A DNA stretch of 64,000 nt from Gammaproteobacteria bacterium (GTDB lineage: Bacteria; Pseudomonadota; Gammaproteobacteria; AKS1): NCBI GenBank assembly GCA_027006175.1, contig JALTKS010000056.1, positions 1-64,000 of the forward strand, in the 5' to 3' direction. The position numbers were made by a program, and so were the translations under genes. Positions 345 through 5,455 of the stretch are shown here, piece by piece. The notes beneath the pieces were generated by a model that was not told the origin of the DNA, searched no databases, and saw only the letters and a list, made by a program, of their open reading frames with translations. The stretch's first letter is position 1. Every line of letters begins with the position of its first letter.

Positions 345-504
345 TATTTTGGGTTTAGCGTTAAAGTAAGACGGCAGGATGAGAACCGAAAAGGTTCGAC
401 TAATTTGGCTGTAGTGAAACGAAAGCCAAATTAGAGCGCGCCAGGTGGCGCGACCCGCAGGGCGAAGGAACAAGTGTTCCGAGTAATCCTGCCGCCCCAG
501 CCAT
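345..504 (+). repeat. Multi-hairpin element after tRNA-Gln, ending in a duplicate of the tRNA 3' end
   Basis: Bases 326-345 (tRNA 3' end) recur exactly at 485-504, a 20-bp direct repeat with period 159. Between them lies a dense set of inverted repeats: a 9-bp closing stem CGGCAGGAT (372-380) with ATCCTGCCG (486-494); GAACC/GGTTC (383-387/393-397); an 11-bp stem (400-410/424-434); CGCGCCA/TGGCGCG (437-443/446-452); GGAACA/TGTTCC (467-472/475-480). Bases 372-387 match the reverse complement of the tRNA T arm at 14 of 16 positions. The unit looks like a non-coding, tRNA-targeted repeat or a structured transcript tail. I do not recognise a named family. Confidence 0.7.
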
Positions 505-4051: not shown

Positions 4052-4128
4052 GGCTATGTAGCTCAGCTGGTTAGAGCACAGCATTCATAATGCTGGGGTC
4101 GGTGGTTCAAGTCCACCCATAGCCACCA
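4052..4128 (+). tRNA. Elongator tRNA-Met (anticodon CAT)
   Basis: Acceptor GGCTATG (4052-4058) pairs with CATAGCC (4118-4124); D arm GCTC/GAGC; anticodon stem CAGCA/TGCTG with loop TTCATAA; T arm GGTGG/CCACC with TTCAAGT; discriminator A and encoded CCA. The overall sequence is close to E. coli metT/metU elongator tRNA rather than initiator or ileX. It is intact, with its 3' half (from the anticodon loop on) repeated 1531 bases downstream, so it is the restored left junction of an integrated element. Confidence 0.93.
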
Positions 4129-4400: not shown

Positions 4401-4865
4401 ATGAGTATTAAAGATATCGTATTTAGCCAGTATCAGGGCATTATTAATCGTGCTGCTAGTCAGGTGCGCGAGGTTACTGTGCCACCTGAGGGGTGGTTAT
4501 GCACTGCTCGTAAGGCTTTGAAGATGTCAGGGGCGCAACTGGCTAGGCGCCTTGGTGTATCCCGTGCGCAAGTCTCCAAAACTGAGAAAAACGAGCTGAT
4601 GGGCAGCGTTACTATCAAAACCATGCAGCAAATGGCTGAAAAAATAGGTTGTCGTTTTGTGTATGCCGTTGTTCCAGAAAATACCGTAGAGGATCTTATT
4701 AACGCACGTGCCAAAGAAAAGGCGACTGCGATTGTGGAGCTTACAAACAAACATATGGCGCTTGAACAGCAAGCTTTATCAAATGAACAGAGGCAATTTG
4801 AGATAGATCGCCTCCAGCAAGAGATGGTTAAGGATATACCTTTTGATTTTTGGGATGATAAGTAA
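4401..4865 (+). CDS. Mobile mystery protein A (XRE-type HTH regulator, likely Fic partner)
   Basis: A 154-residue protein with a helix-turn-helix at about residues 38-62 (L-A-R-R-L-G-V-S-R-A-Q-V-S-K) and a charged, probably coiled C-terminal third rich in Glu, Gln and Lys. Architecture and pairing fit the family named mobile mystery protein A (TIGR02612), found in mobile settings beside a Fic protein. Its stop overlaps the start of the Fic gene, so the two are translationally coupled. Residues 26-31, T-V-P-P-E-G, formally fit the Fic-inhibitory pattern [S/T]xxxE[G/N], but the two prolines make an inhibitory helix doubtful. Likely role: DNA-binding self-repressor and possible antitoxin. This is inferred from pairing, not proven. 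Confidence 0.85.
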   Translation: MSIKDIVFSQYQGIINRAASQVREVTVPPEGWLCTARKALKMSGAQLARRLGVSRAQVSKTEKNELMGSVTIKTMQQMAEKIGCRFVYAVVPENTVEDLINARAKEKATAIVELTNKHMALEQQALSNEQRQFEIDRLQQEMVKDIPFDFWDDK

Positions 4866-5455
4866 TGGTTATTGAATACCCGGAGGGTGCAACGCCAATT
4901 GATCCTGATGAGCTTGAAGGGCTTAAATTCAAGCATGTCACTACACGAGAAGAGCTTGACCATTTAGAGCAAGGTAACATTCAAGATGGTCTGGTTTGGC
5001 TTCAACGCTCCAAAGAAACGGACATTTTAAATGAAGGATTTGTACGAGAATTACACAAACGCCTATTCGGTGATGTCTGGAACTGGGCTGGCACATTCAG
5101 ACAGACAGAAAAAAGCATAGGAATTGACCCAATTCAGATCTCGGTACAATTGCGTATCCTTTTGGACGATGCACGTTATTGGGTTGAAAATGATACTTAT
5201 GAACCTCTGGAGCTAGCAGTTCGTTTTCATCATCGACTCGTTTACATACACCTGTTTCCTAACGGAAACGGACGACATGCCAGAATTATGGCTGATGCAT
5301 TGTTAATGAAAGTTTTGAAGAGAGACCCCATAGATTGGACAGCTGGGTATGATCTTCAAGAAATGAATGAACGTAGGGAGCAATATATTTTGGCGCTCCG
5401 TGCAGCAGATGCAGGAGACATTGAACCATTGATGCATTTTATTTCTGCTGAATAA
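4865..5455 (+). CDS. Mobile mystery protein B (Fic-domain protein)
   Basis: A 196-residue Fic/Doc-fold protein, matching the family called mobile mystery protein B (TIGR02613). Fic proteins transfer AMP or other phosphate-containing groups to target proteins. The core motif at 129-137 reads H-L-F-P-N-G-N-G-R: catalytic His129, the anion-binding glycines and Arg137 are kept, but the usual Asp/Glu that holds the metal is Asn133 and the usual Pro is Leu130. Residues 56-80 (N-E-G-F-V-R-E-L-H then G-D-V-W-N-W-A-G) are the conserved helix before the flap. No clear internal inhibitory motif is seen; T52 to E57 is one residue too long. The ATG overlaps the stop of the HTH gene. A toxin-like role is inference. 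Confidence 0.88.
   Translation: MVIEYPEGATPIDPDELEGLKFKHVTTREELDHLEQGNIQDGLVWLQRSKETDILNEGFVRELHKRLFGDVWNWAGTFRQTEKSIGIDPIQISVQLRILLDDARYWVENDTYEPLELAVRFHHRLVYIHLFPNGNGRHARIMADALLMKVLKRDPIDWTAGYDLQEMNERREQYILALRAADAGDIEPLMHFISAE

Follow-up and report, generated by a model that had tools for sequence, protein, structure and literature searches.

RtT RNA, a small RNA encoded in the tyrT operon of Escherichia coli, belongs to the 22 tRNA-linked repeats (TLRs) of that species, sequences whose last 18–19 bp are identical to the 3′ end of the tRNA or rRNA upstream (PMC8144298). TLRs are traced to Egan and Landy 1978 and Rudd 1999, as cited in PMC8144298, and are without known function, an early starvation phenotype having been retracted (PMC8144298). 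Northern blots have revealed RtT RNAs in Actinobacillus (PMC4986893), and both covariation and a tandem GA motif are on record for RtT (PMC7657543, PMC8250186). Neither the function nor the origin of TLR/RtT repeats has so far been settled.

The window, which is the whole 64,000-nucleotide stretch of gammaproteobacterial DNA analysed here, carries such a repeat directly behind a tRNA-Gln gene. The Rfam model for RtT RNA (RF00391) matches positions 358–503 at 54.3 bits, above its gathering cut-off of 45; this match and the RtT/TLR literature place the element in a known family, that of RtT RNA/TLR, to which it adds a new member. The hallmark of TLRs is present, with 20/20 bp shared with the 3′ end of the upstream tRNA compared with the 18–19 bp of the E. 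coli repeats, and so is their placement, here behind tRNA-Gln and, elsewhere in the same genome, as a tandem pair behind tRNA-Arg. The E. coli rttR repeats (RF00391) are alike in sequence and structure, in lying directly behind a tRNA and in having a right end that equals the tRNA 3′ end. By contrast, they form tandem repeats behind tRNA-Tyr, whereas a single unit follows tRNA-Gln here, and the known TLRs have been described for E. coli and other Enterobacteriales (PMC8144298).

The repeat behind tRNA-Gln

The features of the locus, all on the + strand, are as follows.

172–256, +, truncated second copy of the leader and tRNA-Gln 5′ end, plus a 54-nt spacer
270–344, +, intact resident tRNA-Gln(UUG) (ARAGORN; Rfam tRNA model, 59.5 bits)
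326–345, +, original copy of the direct repeat: T-arm 3′ half, acceptor 3′ strand, CCA and one further base
358–503, +, RtT RNA/tRNA-linked repeat, Rfam extent (RF00391, 54.3 bits); 368–503 with our covariance model R2 (82.9 bits)
372–387, +, left arm, matching the tRNA T arm in inverted orientation (14/16); 372–380 pairs with 486–494 and closes the element
383–397, +, hairpin I, GAACC/GGTTC, which includes the sense T-arm 5′ half GGTTCGA (393–399)
398–485, +, core, not derived from tRNA, between the TTC-GA and ATCC of a T-loop; exact extent of the match to our core model R3, and the piece found dispersed in other genomes
400–434, +, core hairpin II, 11 bp, with compensatory changes relative to congener G003
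436–452, +, core hairpin III, with one compensatory change relative to congener G003
454–462, +, CCCGCAGGG, a nearly invariant motif of the family
467–480, +, core hairpin IV, GGAAC/GTTCC
485–504, +, second copy of the direct repeat, the right end of the element, which equals the resident tRNA in most loci
541–1494, +, prs, the downstream context gene, named from homologues and known gene order; its product we take to be ribose-phosphate pyrophosphokinase

No terminator-like site was found on the + strand between the element and prs at 541.

The earlier note had described a direct repeat of the tRNA 3′ end, a hairpin-packed spacer with a 9-bp closing stem and four good hairpins, and a left end that is an inverted T-arm copy, and these descriptions hold. 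The two copies of the direct repeat (326–345 and 485–504) are identical at 20/20 positions, and at 22/23 when extended to 348 and 507. The left arm (372–387) is antisense to the T arm (320–335) at 14/16 positions, a match equalled in 1/20,000 shuffles of 346–484. When refolded, 372–494 forms the 9-bp closing stem, four clear hairpins and a weak hairpin at CCCGCAGGG with a predicted energy of −58.9 kcal/mol; dinucleotide shuffles of the same segment average −32.6 kcal/mol (z −7.2), and 0/200 are as good. Read from left to right, the unit has an antisense tRNA 3′ end and then a sense one, the T-loop of which is interrupted by the core.

Conserved structure with paired changes, which characterizes RtT RNA, is found here as well. 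Among 62 elements, the closing stem is 83% paired and has a covariation of 0.495 (0.213 when shuffled), part of which stems from tRNA copying. Every helix covaries in two sets of elements, the second of which was aligned to the model’s own structure and is hence biased towards it, and the hairpin sequences vary freely while pairing is maintained. Because the comparison of this element with that of congener G003 yields 3 compensatory, 0 one-sided and 1 broken change among 41 pairs, the evidence points to selection on structure at this very locus, bearing out the covariation search across related genomes that the earlier note had recommended.

That note had also recommended a search near other tRNAs of the genome and had worried that a single copy, combined with a lack of covariation and of a transcript, would reduce the element to a chance or decayed sequence. 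A blastn search of the genome itself gave no further copy, but is too insensitive for such repeats, and covariance models were used instead. The model R2, built from the 62 elements, replaced an initial model (R1) in which the default consensus structure kept only 17 pairs; it recovers four repeats in the tyrTV region of E. coli K-12. In the genome studied here, R2 finds a tandem RtT pair behind tRNA-Arg(CCT) (contig C59, 65–375), which, with the covariation described above, lays the worry to rest. The internal T-arm halves of this pair follow the unusual C-G pair of tRNA-Arg(CCT) (CGTTTGA...AATCG).

Congener G003 carries an element at the same tRNA-Gln and congener G001 a decayed remnant there; congener G002 has none at this tRNA-Gln and others elsewhere in its genome. 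The tRNA-Gln next to prs also bears an element in genomes from metagenomes (loci L181, L200, L203, L238 and L250). More broadly, the Rfam model matches 66/369 gammaproteobacterial genomes and R2 matches 58/143, with up to 18 elements per genome, and in family f207, which belongs to another class of Pseudomonadota, RtT elements occur in 24 sampled genomes at Ser, Gln and Asp tRNAs. The resident tRNAs comprise those for Ser, Gln, Tyr, Arg, Glu, Val, Lys, Pro and Asp. One RtT lies directly behind a tmRNA gene (genome G051, locus L326), the only such case, and its right end copies the tmRNA 3′ end.

Terminal repeats and the host tRNA

In 86 loci, right ends agree with the resident tRNA at an average of 18.4/20 positions and with tRNAs of other types at 12.4/20, and the antisense match of the left arm is 9.85/14 against 8.2; copying of the resident by the ends was confirmed in further loci. 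In 71/72 loci the direct repeat has its 5′ edge at a fixed place in the T-loop, with a 3′ edge that falls from 0 to >20 nt beyond the CCA, and the base before the internal GGTTCGA tracks tRNA position 51. In genome G018, elements at tRNA-Gln and tRNA-Val have cores that are 90% identical and ends that are switched, and further pairs behave alike. As judged from these sequence comparisons, the tRNA-derived terminal repeats are part of the host tRNA’s own sequence and change with it, and the core stays the same. The earlier note had read the ends as terminal inverted repeats made of tRNA sequence, in what looked like a small mobile repeat or a stable RNA; their tRNA origin stands, but they are not a mobile element’s own ends, as they change with the host tRNA around a constant core. 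The TLR texts consulted, a set to which the 1978 and 1999 originals do not belong, contain no description of the inverted left arm, the end switching or the dispersed core.

The inner core as a candidate insertion element

To follow the core apart from its ends we used R3, a covariance model of the core that excludes the tRNA-derived ends. Several lines of evidence emerge. First, cores split tRNAs. Three core-split copies of tRNA-Gln precede one intact copy in genome G125, duplicates of tRNA-Ser(TGA) are split by the core in G125 and G239, and in G265 a copy of tRNA-Arg(ACG) is split, as is a copy of tRNA-Ser(GCT), the latter in both the D-loop and the T-loop. Joining the flanks in G125 restores intact sequence across the junction, the intact copies thereby representing empty sites, and side-by-side sequences in G129 reveal the same restoration at the D-loop and T-loop of a tRNA-Ser. 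Loci without a detected tRNA are mostly split tRNAs, tRNA fragments, tmRNA or contig ends, with few left unplaced. Second, cores also lie far from tRNAs. R3 places 11/21 cores of G125 near tRNAs, where 0.33 would be expected, and the other 10/21 far from them; in G128, 12/14 are far from tRNAs, and in the genome studied here all three cores are behind tRNAs and none is dispersed. Third, one core in G128 adds 24 codons to a gene in frame, and a homologue on an Agarilytica plasmid is without exactly these 24 residues. The insertion points are mostly GA^A and show no target duplication, with a few dispersed copies departing on the right side. Both dispersed and tRNA-internal cores keep their hairpins through compensatory change, in an alignment that was fitted to the model and is biased accordingly. 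In G125 (loci L338, L347 and L357), seven near-identical cores lie within an apparently larger dispersed repeat with ends like TATTGCACCAAGG.

Because tRNAs are split at sites that also occur empty, copies are dispersed and one insertion preserves a reading frame, the comparisons suggest that the ~80-nt core has the behaviour of a miniature insertion element whose usual entry point is GA^A and which leaves no target duplication. The earlier note’s small mobile repeat that targets tRNA genes thus survives for the inner core, with its T-loop and D-loop insertions, empty sites and dispersed copies, but not for the terminal repeats, which are not its ends. Its other reading, a stable RNA processed out of the tRNA transcript, corresponds to what is reported for E. 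coli RtT and may hold here too; the note did not recognise the described RtT/TLR family. A literature search that covered few subscription journals, with the 1978 and 1999 originals falling outside it, found no description of the core as an insertion element.

A related relic may lie upstream of the resident tRNA. Positions 172–202 are an exact 31-nt repeat of 257–287, that is, of the leader and tRNA-Gln 5′ end; the truncated copy (172–256) is broken at the D-loop and continues into a hairpin-forming spacer. In congener G001 and in G011, the corresponding upstream copy continues into a recognisable core. The segment is probably the relic of a split duplicate tRNA-Gln.

Two groups of known elements invite comparison. 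Rickettsia palindromic elements are small hairpin elements that occur in frame in protein genes and also in RNA genes, and in this one respect the core resembles them. They belong, however, to a different bacterial class, and the core described here strongly prefers tRNA loops. IS200/IS605- and REP-type (Y1) elements have hairpins at their ends, insert 3′ of a short motif and generate no target duplication, and the core is like them on all three counts. The genome studied here has no match to the Y1 transposase (Y1_Tnp), and the association across genomes is weak, with Y1 transposase in 39/58 RtT carriers and 43/85 non-carriers (Fisher p 0.059).

Taking these features together, we lean towards the view that the tRNA-linked repeats represent a miniature insertion element, so far undescribed, in the form in which it lives in tRNA genes. 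On this proposal, an ~80-nt core would enter mostly at GA^A, colonise tRNA T-loops and D-loops throughout Gammaproteobacteria and in one or more other classes of Pseudomonadota, tolerate in-frame insertion into protein genes, and survive in tRNA operons by having an antisense copy, which tracks the host tRNA, pair with the spare tRNA end. If the core is indeed such a small element targeting GA^A, its entry into a duplicated tRNA 3′ end would explain the odd anatomy of these repeats, whose ends copy the neighbouring tRNA, and the origin of TLR/RtT repeats becomes a testable question.

Proposed history and rival explanations

We consider it likely that the element is an RtT/TLR member in which a duplicate tRNA-Gln 3′ end was split by a mobile core, together with the RNA-level steps given below. 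The comparisons above show the family membership, the anatomy, the tracking of the host tRNA, the covariation, the insertions with their empty sites and the dispersed copies; transcription, processing, active movement today and a moving enzyme are parts that we infer within this account. The core, a widespread miniature insertion element of ~80 nt that forms hairpins, would have entered a surplus tRNA-Gln 3′ end and split its T-loop (TTCGA/ATCC), GA^A being its main entry site and tRNA T-loops and D-loops its preferred places. Since only a duplicate is split, the cell would still have its intact tRNA. In front of the split copy would stand the same 3′ end in inverted form, and units could be amplified on the spot by way of the direct repeats and turn up again at other tRNAs, their ends matching the new tRNA. 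At the RNA level, tRNA-Gln would be transcribed and fold first, the trailer would then fold as RtT and sequester the spare 3′ end in its antisense arm during folding of the real tRNA, and tRNA 3′-end processing would cut off the RtT RNA. We propose no function that goes further.

Folding calculations constrain the protective role of the left arm. For 270–504 and 40 other loci, nearest-neighbour folding predicts tRNA and element to be bistable, the alternative being a swapped fold in which the left arm pairs with the real tRNA and the 5′ acceptor strand with the downstream copy. The model prefers this swapped fold, which would disrupt the tRNA, in 37/41 loci, and we therefore reject protection by thermodynamic stability; the protective-arm idea rests instead on folding order. 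The left arm has TGAG in 30/62 elements and the exact antisense TTCG in 17/62, and TGAG in place of TTCG would be expected to weaken the swapped fold. If the protective-arm idea is true, RNA structure would here have evolved so as to shield a tRNA against a duplicate of its own end.

A released RtT RNA could alternatively be a regulatory small RNA that acts in trans, for example on mRNAs or by way of an RNA-binding protein; such a role has been proposed for the TLRs that follow E. coli 5S rRNA. Selection on structure, the Northern-blot detection of Actinobacillus RtT RNAs (PMC4986893) and the in vitro binding of Hfq and CsrA by the three rRNA-linked E. coli TLRs (PMC8144298) would all suit such a role. 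The tRNA-linked repeats fare differently, however, as a predictor in that paper gives the 19 tRNA-linked TLRs a CsrA-binding probability <0.01, and the retraction of the early starvation phenotype also counts against it (PMC8144298). Moreover, presence is patchy (58/143 genomes, with 1/3 of congeners lacking an element at this tRNA), and the hairpin sequences are free to vary as long as pairing is kept. We regard regulation in trans as unlikely.

Passive duplication, in which replication errors duplicate and invert tRNA 3′ ends, gene conversion keeps them alike and nothing moves, would account for near-identical units in tandem arrays and for ends that follow the resident tRNA, and the T-loop TTCGAA is itself palindromic. 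It appears improbable as the full explanation: the core is not derived from tRNA and is common to different tRNAs with switched ends, it splits both D-loops and T-loops at sites with empty counterparts, and it is found far from tRNAs and inside a protein gene.

An element that uses a tyrosine recombinase and integrates at the tRNA 3′ end might have left the direct repeat as its attL and attR, and the 5′ edge of the repeat does fall in the T-loop, a usual crossover place for tRNA-targeting integrases. Such a remnant is very improbable, since the conserved, structured core turns up again and again, at many types of tRNA, in D-loops and in protein genes, and blastn finds no RtT match in phage or plasmid collections. 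True island or provirus insertions at RtT-bearing tRNAs also look different, leaving a tRNA fragment with the RtT on the far side. Finally, although a decayed remnant exists at the same tRNA-Gln in congener G001, the idea of a chance or decayed sequence that belongs to no family is refuted by the Rfam match, the fold z-score, the covariation and the recurrence across a class.

In a viral collection, 1/5 contigs matched by pattern carries an RtT, apparently on the host side of a filamentous-phage provirus. Locus L319 (5790–5950) forms the end of a viral contig whose reading frames include Zot-like and Rep-like ones, as in filamentous phages; there a 3′ piece of a tRNA precedes an RtT, as though a provirus had displaced the body of the tRNA beside an RtT that was already in place. 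Elsewhere in the window, just downstream of tRNA-Met (4052–4128), a helix-turn-helix reading frame is followed directly by a Fic-like reading frame (4401–5455); the two look like a small mobile gene pair.
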